From: Caldicellulosiruptor morganii | GTDB lineage: Bacteria > Bacillota > Thermoanaerobacteria > Caldicellulosiruptorales > Caldicellulosiruptoraceae | Assembly (NCBI RefSeq): GCF_026810225.1 | Contig: NZ_CP113865.1 | Span: 1,818,001-1,882,000, forward strand | DNA length: 64,000 bases | Direction of reading: 5' to 3' | Shown: positions 3,160-19,319 of the stretch, one piece after another | How the letters are laid out: the number at the start of each line of letters is the position of its first letter | Numbering within the stretch: position 1 is the first letter of the stretch | The notes under the pieces: model-generated | Told to the model about the DNA's origin: nothing | Seen by the model: the letters and a program-made list of their open reading frames with translations, nothing else | The model's database searches: none | Program-made: the position numbers and the translations under genes

Positions 3160-3789
3160 TTATTTTGTTCTTTTTCTGTTACTTTTTTCTTGGTAATTTG
3201 GGGGTGTTCTTGAGGCAATATCAGGGTCGGTTTGTGGTGTATACGATGTCACCTTGATTACTGTTTTTGGAAACACATTTGTTGATGTGTGCCCTTCCAG
3301 TGTGATTTTCACACGTGACATAGTATCGTTTGGTATTACTCCGCAGGTGACAAGCTGATCGATTATTGTCTTGACCATTCTGTTGTCTGTATCAGCTTTC
3401 AAAAAAGGACCTACTGGAACGTAGAATTCAAAATGAATATGAGCCTTTTCAAACCTTGGCTTTTCGGAAAGTGAATTTATGGCGTTTGTAATCAGGTCTT
3501 TCCACTTGAATGTATCCTCCTGTGTATTGACCTTATACACAGGCGGAACGTCAAAGATAAGAATTTTTAAAACTCCATCTTTGTACTCAGCTTCAAACTG
3601 GTCAATAATTAAGCTGCTATCAACATCAATCCCGTACTGTCTTATATAATCGTTATCAAACATCTTCAAGAAATTTTGCCAGTGAAAGAGGTTTTGCCTG
3701 AGCTTGAAAACCCAGTACTCTGTCTCTCTCAAATACTTTTCAGCTTCATCCAAAAGATACCTGATTTCGCCGGCCAGAGGATTGTTCAT
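3160..3789 (-). CDS. RusA-like Holliday junction resolvase family protein
   Basis: A 209-residue protein. The central block FLKADTDNRMVKTIIDQL, followed by a GVIPND turn, matches the RusA arrangement of paired acidic residues (DxDN), a following lysine and a later GVI-x-D acidic turn that form the metal site. RusA resolves four-way DNA junctions as a dimer; phages and mobile elements often carry it. The first 80 residues and the basic, disordered tail (NRKRTK) are extra compared with the roughly 120-residue classic RusA. It starts at ATG 3789 behind AGGAGGTG. A terminator separates it from the ParR-like gene upstream. Fold call is fairly good; activity is inference. Confidence 0.65.
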   Translation of the reverse strand: MNNPLAGEIRYLLDEAEKYLRETEYWVFKLRQNLFHWQNFLKMFDNDYIRQYGIDVDSSLIIDQFEAEYKDGVLKILIFDVPPVYKVNTQEDTFKWKDLITNAINSLSEKPRFEKAHIHFEFYVPVGPFLKADTDNRMVKTIIDQLVTCGVIPNDTMSRVKITLEGHTSTNVFPKTVIKVTSYTPQTDPDIASRTPPNYQEKSNRKRTK

Positions 3790-3816: not shown

Positions 3817-3842
3817 GGCAGGGAATCTGAATATCCCCTGCC
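3817..3842 (-). terminator. Intrinsic terminator after the ParR-like gene
   Basis: Seven-base-pair G/C-rich stem (3817-3823 with 3836-3842). On the minus strand it is followed by TTCATTTTTT. It lies between the ParR-like stop and the ribosome site of the RusA-like gene, so it probably ends or attenuates the partition transcript. Confidence 0.6.
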
Positions 3843-3847
3843 ATTTG

Positions 3848-4093
3848 CTACAGTTTTGAAAAAGCGTCAAGAAATGATTTGACTGACTTTTTATCAAGTC
3901 CGAGTCCTGCCTGCTGCTGAGGAGGGCTGATTTCCTCCATGCTTTCAAGTTTGACTGCCCCTGACAGAACTGCTTTTGTTGCATAATATAGCTCAAGGGC
4001 GTCAAGTATAACTTGCTTTTTATCTTTTTCATCCCAGAAAGGGTGTCCTTCTGGAATCCTCACAGCGTATACGTTGTTTTTATTCTTTTTCAT
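3848..4093 (-). CDS. ParR-like small DNA-binding adaptor
   Basis: An 81-residue protein. The N-terminal stretch VYAVRIPEGHPFWD, then KKQVILDALELYYATKA, fits a ribbon-helix-helix pattern (a strand followed by an amphipathic helix). The tail is Gln/Ser-rich with an ending (SVKSFLDAFSKL) suited to contact with a filament. It lies directly downstream of a ParM-like actin gene, with an array of repeated heptamers between them, which is the gene content of a type II partition system. ATG 4093 is preferred over a GTG four codons upstream because the weak GGGTG site is better spaced. The call depends strongly on context; sequence similarity alone is thin. Confidence 0.6.
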   Translation of the reverse strand: MKKNKNNVYAVRIPEGHPFWDEKDKKQVILDALELYYATKAVLSGAVKLESMEEISPPQQQAGLGLDKKSVKSFLDAFSKL

Positions 4094-4107
4094 AACAAAA
4101 CACACCC

Positions 4108-4410
4108 TGTAAACAGGTTTTTCCCTTATTTTATCTTACTTTCACGGCAACAACAAGCTCATTTTGTAAACACAAGTGTAAACGGGTTTAGCCCTTGATT
4201 TTTCTGATTTTGCTTTGCAAATAATAGCTATTTTGTTTACAACTGACCTCAAAAATCCCCTAAAAAAGCATAGTTTTGTTTACATTTTAGGGGGTTAATG
4301 TTTTTCAAATTCAGATTTTAAGCGCATTTGAGGCGTTTACACCTGTGTTTACATTTTTGGTGTCCTGACAACTTCAAACTCAGCTGTATCAAGCTCTCAG
4401 GCTGTTTACA
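4108..4410. repeat. parC-like centromere candidate: eight TGTAAAC sites in mirror-symmetric spacing
   Basis: The heptamer TGTAAAC (or its complement GTTTACA) occurs at 4108, 4165, 4177, 4235, 4278, 4335, 4347 and 4404. The start-to-start spacings are 57, 12, 58, 43, 57, 12 and 57. The two close pairs are inverted copies: TGTAAAC-ACAAG-TGTAAAC at 4165-4183 and, on the other strand, TGTAAAC-ACAGG-TGTAAAC at 4353-4335. Near the middle, a 9-bp stem (4257-4265 with 4285-4293) forms a possible hairpin. The array fills the gap between the ParM-like and ParR-like genes and overlaps the ParM stop codon. Iterated sites next to parR are the hallmark of parC centromeres. Confidence 0.75.
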
Positions 4411-5356
4411 AACCAAGTGAAAGCAAAGCTAAATATCCTTTTGCGTTTGCAAACTGAGAGTTTTCTATTATCTGAACATTGCTAAACTCCTTTTGCAAAA
4501 CAGAGGCAACAGTAAAAGCTCCTCCGCCAGAGGCAAGCACTGCGTCAAATGTATCAAAGCCACGTTGAAGTCTTCTTGAGATGGACTGAACTATGTCGTC
4601 TGCTATAGCCCTGAAAACTTCCTTTTTGTGCGGCTCAATATCTATCTTTCTGCCACGAACAGATATATGTGAGCGCTCATGAATGTCAAAAAGCAGGCTT
4701 GTGTCGTAGCTCACACCGTATTTTCTTTCAATCATCAAACCAAGTCGTTCAACAGCCAGCGACATGCCTTTGTCCACAGTAAAACACATGTCAAGAAGCG
4801 GGTTTATGTTTTTGCTTTTGATTTCAACTACAATTACGTCTGTTGTTCTAAATCCGACATCCAGAATACAGTATATTCCATCTTCTACTGGTGAGGTGAT
4901 TGAAAAGAGTGCACCAACACCCTGAGGGAACACTTCACACCTTGCAATATGATAGCTGTGCGCAATGCCATTTTTGTCAATGATTATCTCCTCTAAAAAC
5001 TCAAAGTAGTCTTTCACCTTCTCTTTAAGTTTTGGGTAAAGCATCAGTGGAAGACCAAGTCCGAGCTCCACTTCCCTGTCGCTTTCGAGTGCCATAAGTG
5101 CTGTTAAAACAAGCAATTTTGAAAATTCGCTGAAGAATCTTTCTTCAGAAAAGCTTGTTTCTGTTATTAAGCACTGTGTTGCCGCTTCCCCGACTGCATA
5201 TGTCTGGTTCAAGTAGGTTACAAAGTAGTCACTTGTGGGTTTGAGCCCAATGTCTGTCATGAAAGTTTTGGAGACAGCAGATGGGAAAACAACCTCTTTG
5301 CCCTTTTCATTCACTGCCTTTGTGAAACCAAAACCAACGTCAATACCGCACCTCAT
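4406..5356 (-). CDS. ParM-like plasmid-segregation actin
   Basis: A 316-residue actin-fold ATPase. Phosphate-1 loop GIDVGFGFTK is at the N-terminus, phosphate-2 loop LDVGFRTTDV is near the middle, and the adenosine loop ASGGGA is near residue 285, in the expected order. ParM proteins polymerise on ATP and push apart DNA copies attached through ParR bound to parC; length matches the family (about 315-330). The start ATG has a GGGAG site about 10 nt upstream. Downstream lie the heptamer array and a ParR-like gene. A segregation filament in an ICE suggests that the excised circle replicates or is actively retained. Family call is strong. Confidence 0.88.
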   Translation of the reverse strand: MRCGIDVGFGFTKAVNEKGKEVVFPSAVSKTFMTDIGLKPTSDYFVTYLNQTYAVGEAATQCLITETSFSEERFFSEFSKLLVLTALMALESDREVELGLGLPLMLYPKLKEKVKDYFEFLEEIIIDKNGIAHSYHIARCEVFPQGVGALFSITSPVEDGIYCILDVGFRTTDVIVVEIKSKNINPLLDMCFTVDKGMSLAVERLGLMIERKYGVSYDTSLLFDIHERSHISVRGRKIDIEPHKKEVFRAIADDIVQSISRRLQRGFDTFDAVLASGGGAFTVASVLQKEFSNVQIIENSQFANAKGYLALLSLGL

Positions 5357-5410: not shown

Positions 5411-5436
5411 AAGCCTGCTGGGATACCAGCAGGCTT
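5411..5436 (-). terminator. Intrinsic terminator after the HU gene
   Basis: An 11-bp perfect stem (5411-5421 with 5426-5436, 4-nt loop). On the minus strand it is followed by TTTTATTTTTTT. It lies 22 nt beyond the HU stop codon and separates this unit from the partition genes. Confidence 0.85.
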
Positions 5437-5457: not shown

Positions 5458-5739
5458 TCAAGCGTGGCCAGACACAGCTTCTTTTAAAACTTTCCCTGCT
5501 TTGAAAACTGGAACTATTGTTGCAGGTATAAGAATTTCTTCGCCTGTTTGAGGATTTCTTCCTTTTCTTTCAGCTCTTTCTTTTGCTTCGAATGTGCCAA
5601 AGCCAACAAGCTGAACTTTGTCGCCTTTTGAAAGAGCTTCCTGGATACATTCAAGCAAAACGTTCAAAGCCTTTTCGGAATCTTTCTTAGTAAGACCACT
5701 TTTCTCTGCCATTGACTTTATTAGTTCTTCCTTTGTCAT
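5458..5739 (-). CDS. HU-family nucleoid protein
   Basis: A 93-residue HU/IHF-type DNA-bending protein that acts as a dimer. The dimerising helices (MTKEELIKSMAEKSGL) are followed by the conserved VQLVGFGTFEAKERAERKGRNPQTGE block that ends in the DNA-binding arm. Length and motifs are typical. The start has an AAGGAGG site 7 nt upstream. It sits among element genes, so it is probably an element-encoded accessory bender for recombination, replication or partition rather than the chromosomal hup; that role is inference. Confidence 0.92.
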   Translation of the reverse strand: MTKEELIKSMAEKSGLTKKDSEKALNVLLECIQEALSKGDKVQLVGFGTFEAKERAERKGRNPQTGEEILIPATIVPVFKAGKVLKEAVSGHA

Positions 5740-6429: not shown

Positions 6430-6762
6430 CTATTTGTTTAACTCTTCAGCAAGCAGGTTTATAAGATTGTTTAAAATTCTTGGCTGCACAAGTGGCTCCT
6501 TGTTCAGTAAAGTGATAATCTCATTGCAGGCACGTGTATATTTCTTCTGGGCAAGAGCTTTTTTCACCGCAACAAGATGCAGTATATAACTTGTGTGAAG
6601 CTGTGTTATTGAAGATTTAGCATATTCTGAAGATGGCTTTAAACCTTTAATTTGCCAGAGAAACTCTTTCAAAGCGTCTTTTGCAGCCAGGTTTTCTTCC
6701 TCTGAAGTATTATTTACCCAATCATCAAAAGGCTCTAACCTGCTTATGAGCTTCTTTATCAT
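6430..6762 (-). CDS. Small helical hypothetical protein
   Basis: A 110-residue protein that appears all-helical (for example LAAKDALKEFLWQIKGL and ILHLVAVKKALAQKKY), without membrane segments or catalytic motifs. Strong ribosome site GGAGG 7 nt before ATG 6762. It is the first gene of the unit running into the GHHS protein and HU. It could be an adaptor or antitoxin-like protein, but nothing in the sequence shows this. Confidence 0.6.
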   Translation of the reverse strand: MIKKLISRLEPFDDWVNNTSEEENLAAKDALKEFLWQIKGLKPSSEYAKSSITQLHTSYILHLVAVKKALAQKKYTRACNEIITLLNKEPLVQPRILNNLINLLAEELNK

Positions 6763-8977: not shown

Positions 8978-9931
8978 CTATTTGCCAAGTTTGCTGCGAA
9001 GCTCCCTTATCCTTTCCATGTCAAGTCCTGTGACTCTGGCAATAAAGCTATCCTCTGCTCCTTCCTCTATCATCTTCTGGGCTACCTCCAGCAGTGCTTG
9101 TTCTTTGCCCTGTTGAATACCTTGTTGAATACCTTGTTGAATGCCCTGTTTTCTTTCTTTTTCTAACTCCTTCTCCAAGCCCTTTCTTATCTTCTCAGCT
9201 GTGTTGAGAAACATCTCATTCACCCCCAATCTCAGAAAGTCAGACCTGAACAAAAACTCGTCCACTTCTTCGTCTGAAAATCCGTATCCTTTTAATACCA
9301 CGTGGTATAACCACTCGCAAAACTCTTCCTTTTGCTCCTCTGAAAATCTTACATGCTTACTCAAATATTCAAGCCGCTCTGCCACCTTCTCTGGATTGCT
9401 TGATACCTTATCCACATACAAAGCTGCTGCTATCAGATTTGCACCCTTCAAAAGTTTCTCATCGTCTATCATACGCTCATCCACAAACACCAGGCTGAAC
9501 TTTGGAACATACTGTTTAAAATCCTCTCCATAAATCACGTTCTGTTCAAAGCTTGTTGCTGGTGTCCATTCCTGGTCACCTGTATACAGCACTACAGGTA
9601 TCACTACTGGCAGAAGGTTTTTTGCCATGTACTTCTTCTGGATTAGCAGCATGTATTCTAATATCCTCAGGTGTATGAGCTCATCTTTCGTGCTTTGAAA
9701 CTCTAACAGCAAACATATATATGCGTCCTTGTATTTTATTCTGTACACCATGTCTGACCTGCGTGCTCTCCACTGCCTGTTGATAGACTCTGTGGCTATG
9801 ACTTCTATGTCCTCAACTCCAATTTGAAATGGTACAACCTCAAAAATTTCTGTCAAAAGCCACTTGATGTTTGCACTGTTTGTCAGCACTCTTTTGAAAC
9901 CTTCATCAACAAGCCGCCTTTTTCTACTCAT
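8978..9931 (-). CDS. Rpn-family recombination-promoting nuclease
   Basis: A 317-residue protein of the Rpn / transposase_31 family (PD-(D/E)XK nucleases). The N-terminal nuclease core holds the RRSDMVYRIKY and CLLLEFQST blocks that supply the acidic and E-x-Q residues, followed by a helical middle. The C-terminal region contains GIQQ repeated three times (about residues 265-277), encoded by a short tandem DNA repeat near 9111-9144, and ends in a small helical motif. Family members promote RecA-independent recombination and spread between genomes; some have defence-linked roles. ATG 9931 has GGGGGAG upstream. It is flanked by a terminator, so it is a single-gene cassette. Confidence 0.85.
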   Translation of the reverse strand: MSRKRRLVDEGFKRVLTNSANIKWLLTEIFEVVPFQIGVEDIEVIATESINRQWRARRSDMVYRIKYKDAYICLLLEFQSTKDELIHLRILEYMLLIQKKYMAKNLLPVVIPVVLYTGDQEWTPATSFEQNVIYGEDFKQYVPKFSLVFVDERMIDDEKLLKGANLIAAALYVDKVSSNPEKVAERLEYLSKHVRFSEEQKEEFCEWLYHVVLKGYGFSDEEVDEFLFRSDFLRLGVNEMFLNTAEKIRKGLEKELEKERKQGIQQGIQQGIQQGKEQALLEVAQKMIEEGAEDSFIARVTGLDMERIRELRSKLGK

Positions 9932-10069
9932 CTTTCGTTTTACTCCCCCTTTTGTATTGGACTCAGATGAGGGCGGGGGTTACCCTCAGAAAACTTTCTT
10001 AATTTGCCTCTCCTTAATTATATGATACCCCCAAATGATAAGAATTTTCAACATATTTTTTGGGTTTTA

Positions 10070-11146
10070 TTAATCAAGTAATCCTTTTTCTATTATCCTT
10101 CTTACAATCTCGTCCCATTCTTCTTTGGTTATGAAGTCGTTACCCAGGTCACATGTGTATGTCACTATACGATCGTCGATTAAAGCAGAAAAAGCTATTT
10201 CAGGACATCTTATGAACCTCTCAGCAAACTCAATATTGAAGTTTATGAGCTTCATCTTGTAGTCTCTGATAATCTCCTTTATCTCTGACAAATCCTCTAA
10301 GTTATACACTTCAATGTCTAAGTCTTTGCCATTGAAGTTTACCATAAGCAAATCAGAAGGAAGTATATGGCACAGCACCCCATTGAAGGCATCTATAAAA
10401 ATGTCTTTAAGCATACCCTGCTGAACCTGCATAAAGTGATTTTTGCAAAGATTGTATTTCCCAATGCTGTAGCTTACCGGCTTGCCACAAACATAGCAGC
10501 TTCCTGTGTAAGCTCTTTTGGGCTCTAAAGCTTTAAACTCATCATCATCCCAAAAACCTTCGTATATGTTTTTATAGTTCAAAACCACTTTTGGCTTTTC
10601 TACAATGTCATAATCGCCGCTTTTTATCTTTTCTCTGACAATAAAAAGTTCGCTGCTGGTTGGGAAGTACAAATCGTTTGGCGGCAGGCAGCTAATATAA
10701 TAAAGTCTGCCATCAATCACATCTGCATAGGTTACATTTTCATGGGTTGCTACAGAGCTTTCAATAACTGCTTTGTCAACTTTGTTTTCTTCTATCCCTT
10801 TTTCGCTTAGCTTTTCTTCAAGGTCATCGCAATCAATGTCAGTCTGGTTTACATAAAGGTTGTAATCACCAAGCTGTAAAACAAGCGTGGTGCTGGGTTT
10901 TTCAAGGAAATAATCAGCAGTGATTTTAGCTTTTACTACAGTTTTTAACTCTTTAGCATGCACAGAGCAAACATAAGTCTCTTCGTTCTGGTTGATTATT
11001 TTGTAGTGTGCATTGTCAATGCAGTCATGAATACAGCAAAGCCTGTCAGAAGCTTCAGCAGGTAATATTTTTGCACCTTCCTGAATGAGTTTTTCTTCAA
11101 GGTCCACAACTGTAATTTTCTCTTTTGTGACTTTTTTCTTTTTCAT
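10070..11146 (-). CDS. Hypothetical protein with two cysteine/histidine metal-site candidates
   Basis: A 358-residue protein with a basic start (MKKKKVTKEK). Two similar clusters are visible: CCIHDC ... CSVH near residues 37-63 and CYVCGK ... CKNH near residues 217-237. Each has the spacing of a treble-clef or zinc-ribbon-like site. Between and after them lie acidic alpha/beta regions without recognised motifs. It is encoded 74 nt downstream of the VirB6-like gene and may be the last gene of the secretion operon. ATG 11146 has AAAGGGG 7 nt upstream. No function can be assigned; the repeated metal site suggests an internally duplicated protein. Confidence 0.65.
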   Translation of the reverse strand: MKKKKVTKEKITVVDLEEKLIQEGAKILPAEASDRLCCIHDCIDNAHYKIINQNEETYVCSVHAKELKTVVKAKITADYFLEKPSTTLVLQLGDYNLYVNQTDIDCDDLEEKLSEKGIEENKVDKAVIESSVATHENVTYADVIDGRLYYISCLPPNDLYFPTSSELFIVREKIKSGDYDIVEKPKVVLNYKNIYEGFWDDDEFKALEPKRAYTGSCYVCGKPVSYSIGKYNLCKNHFMQVQQGMLKDIFIDAFNGVLCHILPSDLLMVNFNGKDLDIEVYNLEDLSEIKEIIRDYKMKLINFNIEFAERFIRCPEIAFSALIDDRIVTYTCDLGNDFITKEEWDEIVRRIIEKGLLD

Positions 11147-11220: not shown

Positions 11221-13380
11221 TTATGTTCTGAATTCTGAAAAGTCTGGTTTTACAAAATACCGCTTCTGATTTCGTGTTTTCATTTCACGAAGACCGAGCT
11301 GACCAAGCAGCAAATCTTTTTCTATTTTGTATACGTGATGCAAAGCATTGAGTGCATGTTTTGTATTGTCGCTGATATTGTACTCTTTTTCAAGTCTTGT
11401 TGTATCACCTGTTTTAACTGCCTCAACAAACACTTTTGCCTTGTTTACGCTTGAAAGCATTTTAAAAAGCCCCCCTGTTTGTTCAAAGTATGGCTGATAC
11501 TCAGGATTTTGCTGTATCCTCTCAAACACAGCTGAATCAATCCTGTCATCGATTTTGTATGAAAAGAAAGGTTCTTTGAACATGTTAAAACCTGAAGATG
11601 AAAAGTTTGCTGATGCAAAAGAGCCAGAATATGCACCCTGGGCTGAAAAAGCACCCGAGCCTGCTGCCATTCCACTTGAGCCTGCCGCTGTTGCAGCAGC
11701 AGGTGCTGCAACACCACCGGTGAGCCCTACCACAGCTGCGGCTGCTGCCATCTTTCTTGTGTTTGCTGTAGCTGCACCACTACCACCACCATATGGTGGT
11801 CTTGGTCCTAAAAAGCTTCCTGCTGGAGTTGGGCCAAAGTAAGGTGGTGGAGTAGTAGATGTACCGGTTGCAAAAAAGCTATTATCGTCATCATAGTTTC
11901 TGCCGTCTTTCATAACAACTGCTCTGTTTTGCGCAGGAGAAAGCGCTGTGGTTGGCTCTTCAATGTTTGCCGAGCTTGCAACTCTTGCTGGTCTAATCAT
12001 GCCAAGTGCATTGAAAGCATTTCTAAAACCAAGAAGCATATTTGAAAGCGAACCGAGTGCAGGTCGTGCAAGGTTCAGCTCGTCCACCCCTGCCCAGCGC
12101 TCAAACAGGTTTTGCAAAAGGTTTCTTAGCGTGTCCGCAATTTTGGGGATTGAGTACATTGCAATGAACCCAAATGCCCAACCTGTCCATCCTGCTGCTG
12201 TGAATATGTGTATTGTGGTCATGTAAGTGAACGCATAGAAAAATGCCATGGATGCATTTGTCAAAATTTCACCAAACCAGACATTTAGCAGCATTGAATC
12301 CCTTTTGATTCCCCACATCAGTACTGCAAATGGTGTGAACAAGAAAAAGACACCAAGGATATATTTTCTTACCATGAACACAAGGTTTATTTTTGCCCAG
12401 AGCGGTATATACAATGCTTTCATGATGATTGTGTTGGCAGGATTGGAACCACAAACTTGATAGAAGAATGTGTCTATGATTGTATTGTCCTGGGCTATTT
12501 CCTCTGCTGTTTTTGATTCGTCATAATGCAGTCCAAAAACGTCGATAATTGTCGAAAAAGTTTCATTTGATTTTGTTGTGTACGAAAAACTGCTGTTTAT
12601 AACGCTCTGAAGCCATTTTGTAAGAAGCGAAAAGAACTCAAACAGAAGAAATAATATCCAGGGGGCAGTTGCTATGATAAGCAGTGCCATAAACCATGTT
12701 GTAATTTCTTTTGTGAGTGATATCCTCTCTGATGCTGTTACGCCGCTGAACATAAGCTTTATAGCTGTCTTGCCAGCAAGCAGGATAATAAACACCGAAG
12801 CAACTGAAGTAACCACCCAGTAGTATTTTAAGAGAAAATCCATCTCCTTGTCGCTAAACGGATTTCCTTCAAAAAACAACTGATTCATTGGCTTAAAGCC
12901 TGCAAGTTTTCCAAGCCACTCAATGGGTGTAACAATGAACGCTGTTAACACATTTATTATTGCGTTTACAAATATATCCAGTTTATCACCTATATCAAAC
13001 AGTATTTTTTTAACTGTAGATTCTTTTTCAGGGTTTGTGAAAGTTATCTTTGCAATGTCTATAAGCTGCTGCTGGTAGTGAAGCATAATACCTACAACTG
13101 TAGATAGAGCAAAGATAATTATGCTGCCTGCCAGGATGTACTTTGACCACTGCATTATTTTTGTTCTCTCAACGCTGTTTTTGTGGGCCATCAAGCGGAT
13201 GAAGAACAAAGTAATTGATACAAATAAAGAGGCAGAGCCAAGTATACTTACTATACTGAATGCAAGTTTGATAGTTTTTGTTGCTGTGCTGTCGGCAGCA
13301 AAAGCGTATAGAGGAACAAAAGCTAAAAGCAAAATTACTGCTGGCAGGGAAATTTTTAATCTTTTCATTATCAAATTCAT
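11221..13380 (-). CDS. VirB6/TrbL-like polytopic membrane protein of the type IV secretion system
   Basis: A roughly 719-residue protein. It has a cleavable-looking N-terminus (AVILLLAFVPLYAFA), six or more membrane spans up to about residue 440, then a long low-complexity, Pro/Gly/Ala/Ser-rich segment (about residues 490-610) and a soluble C-terminal helical domain. VirB6-type proteins form the inner-membrane channel of conjugation machines. It follows VirB4 by about 22 nt and matches the usual gene order. ATG 13380 is chosen (GAGGTG 11 nt upstream) over a GTG six codons earlier that overlaps the ribosome site. The family is called from topology and position. Confidence 0.75.
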   Translation of the reverse strand: MNLIMKRLKISLPAVILLLAFVPLYAFAADSTATKTIKLAFSIVSILGSASLFVSITLFFIRLMAHKNSVERTKIMQWSKYILAGSIIIFALSTVVGIMLHYQQQLIDIAKITFTNPEKESTVKKILFDIGDKLDIFVNAIINVLTAFIVTPIEWLGKLAGFKPMNQLFFEGNPFSDKEMDFLLKYYWVVTSVASVFIILLAGKTAIKLMFSGVTASERISLTKEITTWFMALLIIATAPWILFLLFEFFSLLTKWLQSVINSSFSYTTKSNETFSTIIDVFGLHYDESKTAEEIAQDNTIIDTFFYQVCGSNPANTIIMKALYIPLWAKINLVFMVRKYILGVFFLFTPFAVLMWGIKRDSMLLNVWFGEILTNASMAFFYAFTYMTTIHIFTAAGWTGWAFGFIAMYSIPKIADTLRNLLQNLFERWAGVDELNLARPALGSLSNMLLGFRNAFNALGMIRPARVASSANIEEPTTALSPAQNRAVVMKDGRNYDDDNSFFATGTSTTPPPYFGPTPAGSFLGPRPPYGGGSGAATANTRKMAAAAAVVGLTGGVAAPAAATAAGSSGMAAGSGAFSAQGAYSGSFASANFSSSGFNMFKEPFFSYKIDDRIDSAVFERIQQNPEYQPYFEQTGGLFKMLSSVNKAKVFVEAVKTGDTTRLEKEYNISDNTKHALNALHHVYKIEKDLLLGQLGLREMKTRNQKRYFVKPDFSEFRT

Positions 13381-13402: not shown

Positions 13403-15174
13403 TTATGTTGTTACATATTCCCATTCAAAATCAAATGGCGTTACCTGAATGAAAATCTTTTCGCGAGGGTTGATAATAATCCCCTGTCCCTGGGCAGCAG
13501 ATGTTATAATTTCAACTGTGCGTTCTGATAGCCTGAAAAACTCTGCAATCTGCGCAGCCATGTCGCTCTCCTGTCGCATTAATATTTTGCTTGCGCACAT
13601 GTTTATAATCGCTCTTCCTGTGTCGTTCTGCAAGAATTCAAGCAATGTCTGGGATGCTATCATCAAAGATATCTTATACTTTCGTCCCTTTCTTGATATA
13701 AACTCCAAATACTCTGCCGATGCCTGGTATCGTGTGAACATCCATGCCTCATCGAATATTACAACTTTCTTCTGACCCTTCAGTTTAGCATTCGAGAACT
13801 TGTTCCATATCCAGCTGAGTATATTTACAGAAGCAAAAAACTTCAAAAAGTTATCTCTTTCAAATTCCTTTAAGTCAAATGCAATTATTTTATCATCAGC
13901 ATCAATTGTGGTCTGGCAGTCAAAAAGTGACAGAGACCCTTCACCAACGAAAACCTCCATTGCTTTTGCCAAAGCCTGTGTTTCGCTCTCTTTAAAAAGC
14001 TCTTCTCTTAGCTCAGAAAGTGTTGGAAGCTCTTTTTTGATTTTCCCAACAATAAGTCTTCCTTTTTCATCCGTCCTTGCTGAAGTGTAAAGGCTTTCTG
14101 GGTCAGAAGTTATACCTTTGTCATAGTAAAGCTTTCTCACAATGCGCTCAATTATTGCCATCTGAACACCATCAAGCCTTTTTCCAACGTAGTATTCGGA
14201 TATGATGTTTAAAATAAACCTGATATCTGCAACTTTCGAGTTGAGGTCGATGAATCTTTTGCCCTCTTCCTCTTCGATTTCAACATCAAAGGGGTTAATA
14301 CCAAGCTTTTCACCCGGTCTTATCCTGATGTACTTGCCGCCCAGCTTGTTTATTATCTTCTCATATTCACGTTCTGGGTCAAGTACGCATATGTTGTAGC
14401 CGTACGCTGCCATCCTGCCAAGCATCGTCTTCATTGTTGTTGATTTTCCCGCACCGGTGGTTCCGAAGATGGCCATGTGCGGATTGGGAAGGCTTCTGTC
14501 GAATTGGTTGTAGAATACCGGACTGTTTGTTATTGCATTGTAGCCAATGTAAAAACCCTCTTCATATGTTATATCTGTGTTGCCCACTGGGAAAAGGCAG
14601 GCAGTTGCTGATGTAGTCATGGGTCTAAACTTCTCGATGTATTTTAGGTTCCTTGCGCCAAGCGGAAGGCAGGAGATATATCCTTTTGCCTGTTCAAAAC
14701 TTAAAGCTCTCATGTTAAGTCCGAGTGACTCAGCAAACTTTGTTATTCTAATACAGTCTTCACGCAGCTGTTCAAGGCTCTTGCTGTATACCACTATGAA
14801 CACCTGAGCCATAAGGATTTTCTCAATGCCTCTTTGAAGTGAGGCACGCAGAGCGTCGTACCATTCTATTTGTGCCAAAAGCTTATAATCAGGTTCTCCT
14901 CTTTGCAGCATTGCGTTTGACTTCATTTCATTTATCCGTCTTGTGATATCCCGTATTGCCTGACCGGTGTCCCTTGGCTCTATAAACACAGATATTGCTA
15001 TCTCGCCTTTGTCAAGAAGACCGTCAAAAAGCCAACATACATCTCGGACGGATAATCTATATCAAGTACATAAACCCTGCAATAATTCTCTGCGCCAAGG
15101 TAGATGTAATCCGCCTCTTCATGAAAAGTGTCAGGCAGGATAAGTTCATAAATATCTGGCGCAAGCTCAAACAT
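13403..15174 (-). pseudogene. VirB4-family conjugation ATPase, interrupted by a frameshift
   Basis: This is the energising ATPase of the secretion channel. The gene starts at ATG 15174 (GGAGAG upstream, one nt after the preceding stop) and reads as a VirB4 N-terminus (DYIYLGAENYCRVYV) until TAG at 14998-15000. The rest continues in another frame, from about 15029 to 13403, with Walker A GTTGAGKST, Walker B KVVIFDEAW and a late GQGIIIN motif. The join is at a five-T run (plus-strand A at 15026-15030); one extra base would restore GFxDGLLDKGEIAIS. Without correction the two pieces are 59 and about 530 residues. It could be a true mutation, a sequencing error or frameshifting; the slip site is not a classic one. 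Confidence 0.85.
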
Positions 15175-15175
15175 G

Positions 15176-15994
15176 TCACTCTCCTGCTGCTCTTGAACCG
15201 TATTCAACTTTGTTTGTTGCTCCCTGGCTGTCCTCTTTATTATCTTCATGAACCACTATCCCCTTTCCAGTAAGTATAGTGGAAAGCGCACCGCTTTCAA
15301 TTGCTTTTTTTACAAGCAGTGTGCTGTCTCTCCTTAGGATGTCTCTAAAAAGCTGCAGAACGCTGTTTCTATCAAGCTGAAACACTTTTATTGACGCACG
15401 CTTAAATAATTGAAACAGCTTTTTAGCTTCCAGTTCAAGTTTGTCAATTGCTATATCTTGTCTTTGTTCTGCTACAGATAAGATAATGTAGTTTTTCCTG
15501 ACAAAAAACTCACTGCCTGTTCTGAGCCTTTCAAGACTGTCCTTTAAAGCTTTCGTGTACATTTTAATTTGCTCTGTTGTGTCTGTGTTATTAATAACAT
15601 TGTCAAGTATCTCGATGTATGCTGCTGTGTCCACTCTCTGGACTGTTGTGAAAAGCTGGACTGGAATGTCTATTGTTCGTGCAATTGTGATTAAATCATT
15701 TTCAAAAAGCTGCTGTTCTGAGTCAGAAAGCAAAACAAAATCGGGTGTGGAAAAATAGAATATTCTTGAGTATATGTTGCCTTCAATACAAACAGTTCCG
15801 TCTTCAAGTATATTTGTAATGTTAAATAAGCTCTTTAAACTTGTCTTTTTGTTGCTCTTTCCTTTGTGATTTTTAGTAGATGTTGTCTTGCTTGATGAAT
15901 GCTCTTCAGTGTCTTTTTTAGTTTGAATGTAGATTACAAATATAGCACCAATACCTGCAATGAGAATGAAAAGCATTACGAATACCAGCCACAT
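15176..15994 (-). CDS. Conjugation protein resembling a VirB4/TraC N-terminal domain
   Basis: A 272-residue protein with one N-terminal membrane helix (FVMLFILIAGIGAIFVIYI), a Lys/Ser-rich linker, then an alpha/beta domain. That domain begins FNITNILEDGTVCIEGNIYSR and continues through LLSDSEQQLFENDL, the style of the N-terminal, nucleotide-free part of TraC/VirB4 proteins. No Walker motif is present. It sits between PrgI and VirB4 and overlaps PrgI by a TAATG junction, so it is certainly part of the secretion operon. It may dock VirB4 to the membrane; that is inference. Confidence 0.65.
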   Translation of the reverse strand: MWLVFVMLFILIAGIGAIFVIYIQTKKDTEEHSSSKTTSTKNHKGKSNKKTSLKSLFNITNILEDGTVCIEGNIYSRIFYFSTPDFVLLSDSEQQLFENDLITIARTIDIPVQLFTTVQRVDTAAYIEILDNVINNTDTTEQIKMYTKALKDSLERLRTGSEFFVRKNYIILSVAEQRQDIAIDKLELEAKKLFQLFKRASIKVFQLDRNSVLQLFRDILRRDSTLLVKKAIESGALSTILTGKGIVVHEDNKEDSQGATNKVEYGSRAAGE

Positions 15995-18126: not shown

Positions 18127-18155
18127 TTGCCTCCTTCTAAGTTTTGGTTTATAAT
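18127..18155 (+). promoter_or_regulatory. Candidate integrase promoter
   Basis: TTGCCT (18127-18132) and TATAAT (18150-18155) are separated by 17 nt, a good sigma-A layout that would give a leader of about 16 nt. The -35 overlaps the ribosome site of the divergent HTH gene, so the two genes would interfere. A CCCC-GAA-GGGGG hairpin (18159-18170) could hide the integrase ribosome site only in longer read-through transcripts. Confidence 0.55.
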
Positions 18156-18177
18156 TAACCCCGAAGGGGGTATAGCC

Positions 18178-19167
18178 ATGAGTGTTGAACAACTTAATAT
18201 TGAAGAATTGATAACAACTCTTGAAAATGTTTTAAAAATCCTCAAACAATATTCAAAAGTCCCAAGTTCATCTATTACTTTTAAAGAGTTTGTTGATTAT
18301 TGGTTTGAGGCTTATGCAAACACAGCAGTTAAACCTTCAACACAAAAAAGATACAGACAACTTCTAAAGCCAGCCCTTAAGGCAATTGGAAGTAAACCTT
18401 TAAATGAGGTAAAGCCAATTGATATTCAAAATATCTATATTGCTCTTGCAGGAACACAATCAAACTGCACAATTCTGAAACTGCACAGGCTTTTACATGA
18501 AATTTTTAAACATGCTCAAATGTGGGAATATATTAGCGACAATCCTGTGAAAAAGGTTGTACCGCCAACGCCTGAGAAAAAAGTATTTGATGTCTGGGAT
18601 ATTGAAACTGCAAAAAGGTTTTTGGAGATTATCAAAGATGAACCTATCTATTATCCTGTTCTCATCGCTCTGCACACAGGGATGCGAGCAGGCGAAATAC
18701 TTTCTCTTAAATGGTGCGATGTTAACTTTGAAACACGGGTAATCAGTATTGTTAAGTCAGAACGCAAAAACAGGGGTTTAAAAACGGTCAATCTGAAAAC
18801 TAAAACTTCAAAACGTGCAGTGTATATGAACGATATTCTCTACAAGGAACTAAAAAATCTATATGAAATCACCAAGCCAAAGCCTGATGATTTTGTATGC
18901 CCAAGACTTCCTACTGGAAACCTGACTGCTAACTATTTATCCAGAAAGTTTAAAAAGATTATTAAAAAACATAATTTTCCTCTCATAAGGTTCCACGATT
19001 TAAGGCATACCTTTGCGACACTTATGCTTTCTCTGGGGGTCAACACTAAAATTGTTGCTGAGATTTTAGGACACAGCGACATCAAACTCACAGCTGATAC
19101 ATACTCTCATGTTCTGCCTACTATGCAGGAAGAAGCGATGAGGGAATTTGTTAAGCTCTGGAAATAA
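18178..19167 (+). CDS. int: Tyrosine integrase of the ICE
   Basis: A 329-residue tyrosine recombinase. The start is ATG 18178 behind AAGGGGG; an in-frame upstream start lacks a site. Order: a short helical N-terminus, a SAM-like core-binding domain (FVDYWFEAYANTAVKPST), then the catalytic domain with the Arg in LHTGMRAGEILSLKW, HDLRHTFATLM, and LGHSDIKLTADTYSHV carrying the nucleophilic Tyr. All catalytic residues are present, so it should be active. The gene ends 41 nt before the tRNA-Trp remnant, which is its likely attachment site. Confidence 0.95.
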   Translation: MSVEQLNIEELITTLENVLKILKQYSKVPSSSITFKEFVDYWFEAYANTAVKPSTQKRYRQLLKPALKAIGSKPLNEVKPIDIQNIYIALAGTQSNCTILKLHRLLHEIFKHAQMWEYISDNPVKKVVPPTPEKKVFDVWDIETAKRFLEIIKDEPIYYPVLIALHTGMRAGEILSLKWCDVNFETRVISIVKSERKNRGLKTVNLKTKTSKRAVYMNDILYKELKNLYEITKPKPDDFVCPRLPTGNLTANYLSRKFKKIIKKHNFPLIRFHDLRHTFATLMLSLGVNTKIVAEILGHSDIKLTADTYSHVLPTMQEEAMREFVKLWK

Positions 19168-19208: not shown

Positions 19209-19254
19209 TCTCCAAAACCGTTGGCTGGGGGTTCGAGTCCCTCCGCCCCTGCCA
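19209..19254 (+). other. 3' half of tRNA-Trp, ICE attachment site (attR)
   Basis: The sequence from 19209 folds as the 3' part of a tRNA. It has an anticodon loop with CCA anticodon at 19212-19214, the 3' anticodon strand ACCGT, T-arm GGGGG-TTCGAGT-CCCTC (19227-19243), acceptor strand CGCCCCT with a G discriminator, and encoded CCA at 19252-19254. The 5' half is absent: upstream bases do not pair with the acceptor or anticodon strands. It is therefore the duplicated att core, not a working tRNA gene. Confidence 0.88.
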
Positions 19255-19319
19255 TTTGTTTTAAGACAACTGGCTTTGAAGTGAAGTGTAGAAAAAATAG
19301 GAGTAAAAAATAGCAAATG

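Follow-up and report, generated by a model that had tools for sequence, protein, structure and literature searches.

A predicted parC centromere of mirrored 57-bp site doublets in an integrated conjugative element of Caldicellulosiruptor morganii

Overview

We have analyzed an array of eight short repeated sites at 4108..4410 (no strand assigned) of a 64,000-nt stretch of the Caldicellulosiruptor morganii genome, referred to here as the window. The array lies between genes for a ParM-like actin ATPase and a small ParR-like protein on an integrative and conjugative element (ICE). It is probably, at about 80% in our estimate from sequence comparison, the parC centromere of a type II actin-like ParM-ParR system that would stabilise the ICE when excised or replicating. 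It is best read as a modular type of parC that has not been described before: no 57-bp or doublet parC was found in the open-access literature, which was the scope of the search. An earlier note on this DNA had reported the repeated sites; to this we add a modular grammar, a motif inside the modules and the finding that site letters differ among relatives.

Geometry of the array

The heptamer TGTAAAC starts at 4108, 4165 and 4177 on the + strand and at 4235, 4278, 4335, 4347 and 4404 on the - strand. All positions given in the earlier note, and its start-to-start steps of 57-12-58-43-57-12-57, are reproduced. There are 20 copies in the window against 10.5 +/- 3.1 expected, and eight of these fall within 303 bp, whereas the best 303-bp stretch across 100 simulated Markov-1 windows held 3. 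The core of each site is a near-palindrome, TGTWWACA (per-site forms TGTAAACA/TGTTTACA), and the near-palindrome centres give 57-12-57-43-57-12-57, with every long step equal to 57.0; the lone 58 arises because the heptamer orientations are mixed (+++-----). Four site pairs share a single dyad at 4259.0, the centres of each pair summing to 8518.0, and exact symmetry appeared in 0 of 200,000 trials of random placement. Judged only from heptamer orientation the mirror is not perfect, since the sites at 4235 and 4278, the inner pair, have the same orientation. The large-scale near-palindrome noticed earlier is therefore an exact mirror at the site centres, and it extends to the inner polarity motif described below. 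As had also been noted, each 12-bp pair is an inverted copy of the other (arms 4165-4184 and 4334-4353, 19 of 20 positions complementary). The pattern TGTAAAC-N50-TGTAAAC-N5-TGTAAAC occurs twice in the genome, both times within the array; 298 other genomes sampled from the phylum do not contain it.

Going from parM to parR, the array consists of four 57-bp modules in the order >12>43<12<. Modules 1 (4346..4410, - strand; proximal centre 4406.5, distal 4349.5) and 2 (4277..4341, - strand; 4337.5 and 4280.5) point away from parM, and modules 3 (4177..4241, + strand; 4180.5 and 4237.5) and 4 (4108..4172, + strand; 4111.5 and 4168.5) point the opposite way. At one end the array reaches into parM, its outermost site overlapping the stop codon. 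At the other end module 4 covers the presumed parR promoter, with its proximal site ~18 bp ahead of the parR start. The module length corresponds to ~5.4 helical turns and is thus a half-integral spacing.

Close relatives and a natural exchange of sites

Two relatives (genomes G007 and G011, the latter carrying the array of locus L004) have ParM proteins 89-90% identical to that of the window, and their arrays align over 302 bp without an indel. All 56 of 56 site bases are identical, while only 63% of the spacer bases are. The earlier note had taken the region between parM and parR for a designed nucleoprotein site of parC-like type, an idea to be given up if the spacing were not conserved in relatives; the spacing is conserved, which supports the proposal. 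Chance or ordinary tandem-repeat drift without function is already refuted by such comparative data. We found no support for it, although TGTAAAC is moderately common in A+T-rich DNA; every site base is conserved where the spacers have diverged, the dyad is exact, and the layout recurs elsewhere with different letters.

A third relative, G001, has an equally close ParM, yet carries other sites (TGCATTGCA, TGCATTACA) at almost the same spacings. Such a swap can be followed in the pair L002/L003, where ParM agrees at 288 of 313 positions and the C-terminal part of ParR at 51 of 56, the N-terminal part at only 15 of 25, and the site letters have changed. Between L001 and L002, both TGTAAAC elements, it is the N-terminal part that is kept (23/27) and the C-terminal part that drifts (38/52). 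Since the N-terminal part differs when the site letters differ and the C-terminal part is kept with ParM, the comparison points to the N-terminus of ParR as the predicted reader of the sites and indicates that the tail goes with ParM.

G011 holds a second copy at ~2.824-2.828 Mb (L008/L009/L047), in which an intact eight-site array accompanies an interrupted parM, 98% identical over residues 51-316 and with stops in its N-terminal part. At L013, L018, L021 and L030, parR is followed by another small gene (RRLNVRVDVDSPIW...) similar to the N-terminus of the window-type ParR, and these loci may have two ParR-like proteins.

Distant relatives

A query of genome and viral contigs with the single ParM protein gave no matches; an alignment-based ParM scan gave 80 loci, mostly from other orders. 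Downstream of parM in these 80 relatives, the distances between repeated 7-mers form a peak at 57-59 bp that reaches 128 (median 45, sd 17), and no 57-59 bp peak is seen upstream of parM in the same relatives. At least three pairs at 56-59 bp are found in 12 of 78 loci, against 0-3 loci for control distance windows and none upstream. The 56-59 bp doublet occurs downstream of parM in Caldicellulosiruptoraceae, Thermoanaerobacterales, Desulfotomaculia, Syntrophomonadia and Sulfobacillus-like bacteria, with wholly different site letters: TGTAAACA, TGCATTGCA, TGTCGGACA, GTGTGACC and TTCCGGAA. Group-specific sites further include TGTATACA, TGTTAACA, TGGTGACA, CTGCGCCA and others. The conserved spacing thus reaches distant families, as a 57-58 bp doublet rule kept despite other site letters. 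Even the complete eight-site plan recurs with other letters, as 58-12-58-42-58-12-58 at L010 and as 58-13-58-33-58-12-58 at L060 and L090. Modules are found in none of the Bacillaceae-type (15/15) or Desulfobacteria-type (19/19) ParM loci. On the ParM tree the module label requires 15 changes, against 29.6 with shuffled labels, with seven labels set by eye and some "absent" labels probably missed calls. The loci are related rather than independent, and P-values serve as guides. The consensus sites of each locus were picked after inspection; the unbiased tests are the 7-mer distances and the pair counts, and the held-out test is the leave-one-clade-out recognition described below.

In module-bearing loci the array always lies between parM and the small ParR-like gene, and in many relatives, as in the window, its last site falls between the presumed parR promoter and the start codon; ParR therefore probably represses its own gene through this site. 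One may ask whether the array is mainly an operator through which ParR or another regulator controls parR and downstream genes, with no centromere role. The position of the last site is compatible with this, as are the terminator-like hairpins before parM (5411..5436, - strand, behind the HU-like gene) and after parR (3817..3842, - strand), with none between the two genes. The presumed parR promoter was not among the sites listed by a consensus promoter scan. However, 8-12 sites spread across 300-500 bp, with polarity and a strict modular spacing, are more than a repressor needs; several arrays start within parM or at its end, a long way from any promoter; and the layout is tied to actin-type parM loci. 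We consider a purely regulatory role unlikely.

Module grammar and the inner polarity motif

The grammar was derived from 106 modules at 35 loci, with module length (55.5-59.5) imposed at calling and linker lengths left free. Linkers cluster at 12-14, 21-25, 30-35 and 40-43 bp, with the gaps between these classes empty, and so advance in steps of about one helical turn (period ~10 bp, R = 0.74 against a 99% null of 0.38). Linker length depends on direction: all 27 of 27 tandem doublets have linkers of 12-14 or 21-25 bp, and 25 of 27 convergent (facing) doublets have linkers of 30-35 or 40-43 bp.

Doublet direction is given by a second conserved motif within the doublets, approximately AAGCCTTG-N5-CAAGGCTT. 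Averaging modules without regard to orientation smeared this motif, and a latent-orientation model resolved it as the palindrome A..CC.T.......A.GG..TT, centred 20 bp from one site and followed by an A/T run at 40-43. Its log-likelihood was 274.8 against a shuffled maximum of 76.3, and 253.8 against a dinucleotide-shuffled maximum of 64.9. Held-out modules were recognised when each clade in turn was left out (z = 6.6, 14.6, 15.3, 6.2 and 2.6). The octamer AARCCTTG is present exactly in 14 modules, against 0.2 expected, with half-sites at -15, -2, +2 and +15 from the module centre, four fixed positions in mirror order; it is rare in parM, upstream of parM and in non-module clades. In addition, A/T and G/C are helically phased within modules (period 10.7-11.1 bp, power 9.3 against a shuffled maximum of 2.2). 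No consistent match to an IHF-type site was found in the modules, and this candidate was dropped.

In the window the motif lies at 4376..4397 (- strand) in module 1, in a degenerate form (GAGCTTG) 10-30 from the proximal site, and at 4307..4328 (-), 4190..4211 (+) and 4121..4142 (+) in modules 2, 3 and 4. The array is called >><<, also by a motif trained on other clades only.

The inner motif letters are kept while the ParR site letters change. The array is therefore best read as carrying two overlaid codes, one of variable address sites for ParR and one that is structural and conserved. In its fullest form, which we put forward tentatively, at a little under even odds, this would be a "two-code" centromere, whose ParR address sites set compatibility and whose invariant polar structural code fixes the wrapping and docking of the 57-bp unit. 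The constancy of the inner motif would also fit a composite centromere in which a second protein, a host factor or one encoded by the element such as the RusA-like protein, sits on the inner palindrome as an architectural or processing partner of ParR. The fixed mirror positions of the half-sites favour such a partner, as does the frequency of RusA-like genes near parR (20 of the 37 module-type loci, 4 of the 52 remaining ones). On the other hand, many module loci have no RusA-like gene in the flank examined, the motif is degenerate in Caldicellulosiruptor, and the phased A/T and G/C would suit intrinsic bending without another protein. On balance a second protein is possible, and we would bet against it.

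In the window the RusA-like (Holliday-junction-resolvase-like) gene stands beside parR at 3160..3789 on the - strand (PHROG RusA-like, 1e-5). Its relatives (L032-L046, L060, L068, L090, L092, L095, L121, L122 and L124) keep the D.DN motif, and the lysine is often missing.

Genes of the element

The parM-like gene (4406..5356, - strand) encodes a predicted actin-like ATPase of 316 aa, as expected for a type II (ParMRC) partition system, with matches to Pfam ALP_N (2.9e-30) and MreB-like_C (2.6e-24) and to the PHROG partition protein (3.5e-49). Among solved chains, the family profile matches pCBH ParM best (6izr/6izv, 8e-96) and also matches Dh-cParM1 (5e-37). The 81-aa ParR-like protein is encoded at 3848..4093 on the - strand from an ATG start, with a GTG at 4105 as an alternative, and its relatives are encoded directly behind the array. 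The position and size of the gene and the predicted, conserved C-terminal helix agree with a small ParR downstream of parM.

Several points weigh against the centromere assignment. Binding of the eight sites by ParR is putative. A ribbon-helix-helix fold for the 81-aa protein is tentative: the protein has no Pfam match, and RHH_1 matches weakly in 3 of 15 ParR relatives (best 0.009). Fold searches with two ParR models gave no useful match, and the ParR profile found no relative by sequence among solved chains. A simple ring that carries every ParR on the same face, the model put forward for R1/pSK41, is at odds with the half-integral 57-bp spacing, and the conservation of the inner motif across different ParRs could mean that another protein reads it.

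An HU-like gene adjoins parM at 5458-5739 (- strand), the second HU-type gene of a genome that holds only one other, and its product might bend the 57-bp spacers as part of the machine. It has this position only in three TGTAAAC-type elements, the window and two relatives, and is absent near almost all other module-bearing loci; moreover, the hairpin at 5411..5436 separates it from parM. HU as a general spacer-bending partner was therefore rejected, and a role confined to this machine seems improbable.

The element carrying these genes is predicted to be an ICE integrated at tRNA-Trp. A tyrosine integrase gene (18127..19167, + strand; Pfam Phage_integrase, 5.1e-28) stands beside attR (19209..19261, + strand), a repeat of the tRNA-Trp 3' end whose partner attL lies at genome position 1777948-1778000. 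The direct repeat is exact over 47 bp and bounds an element of ~59.3 kb, which encodes a VirB4 homologue. The latter is split into two open reading frames (13403-14989 and 15176-15994, - strand), perhaps by a frameshift, and conjugation may be impaired in this copy. A 110-aa protein without assigned function, encoded on the ICE (6430-6762, - strand), also occurs near parMR in a Thermoanaerobacter-type genome (L016/L042). Downstream of the parR operon, noncoding DNA at 2500-2900 is dense in short inverted repeats of CAGCAG/GCTGCT type.

Comparison with known systems

The locus resembles the ParMRC systems of R1 and pSK41 in its actin-like ParM, its small ParR with a C-terminal helix and a multi-site centromere beside the genes. 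Their parC sites consist of direct repeats of 11 bp (R1) or 20 bp (pSK41), spaced at approximately integral turns and usually located upstream of parM (PMC9426499). The array described here does not follow this classical plan: it consists of near-palindromes in 57-bp polar doublets, in mirror order and downstream of parM, which bears out the earlier remark that it is unlike the usual parC. In pCBH, which has the closest solved ParM, parM (10031-11083) is followed by parR (11558-11935) ~475 bp behind it, and parC is reported upstream of parM, at 9901-10030 (PMC6599009). A 2025 survey of chromosome-encoded ParMs lists a cassette, Cs-cParMR, from Caldicellulosiruptor saccharolyticus; the accessible part of that article treats such cassettes as chromosomal, gives no parC architecture for Cs-cParMR and mentions no integrative or mobile elements (PMC12270681), whereas the system in the window sits in a tRNA-Trp ICE. 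The srpMRC locus of SXT/R391 provides a precedent for active ParM-type partition of an ICE. This ICE-borne actin-type locus reduces loss of the element, and its srpC lies upstream of srpM with four repeats and, in the available text of that report, no doublet grammar (PMC4489591).

Proposed mechanism

The usual picture of a ParR-parC complex is a ring or solenoid built on direct repeats at even spacing. Here the sites within a module are offset by half a turn, the linkers between modules change in steps of one turn and the modules stand head to head, which suggests instead a discrete two-fold wrapped complex. A ParR dimer would bind each 8-9 bp near-palindrome, probably through an N-terminal ribbon. 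Two sites 57 bp apart would form a polar module, whose inner DNA, with its second letter-conserved palindrome and phased A/T and G/C, would make it bend or wrap in one fixed direction. Head-to-head modules (>><<) would then build one two-fold particle presenting the C-terminal helices of ParR to the ends of ParM filaments, and the growing filaments would push sister copies apart.

Implications

Sequence evolution alone reveals here a building plan different from that ring or solenoid, with 57-bp polar units, direction-dependent linker steps of one turn and a head-to-head dyad. Because the address letters vary freely while the structural code stays, specificity and architecture are separable by experiment, and segrosome geometry becomes directly testable. 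The grammar offers a route, in many Bacillota, to finding centromeres and to sorting mobile elements into incompatibility groups, and within this family at least one "chromosomal ParM" is explained as mobile-element cargo. If the two-code proposal is true, each array would fold into a discrete, countable two-fold particle, somewhat nucleosome-like, and would belong to a class of actin-driven centromere that is general among thermophilic and anaerobic Bacillota. For the ICE of C. morganii, the array is probably a precisely built handle for motor-driven DNA movement.
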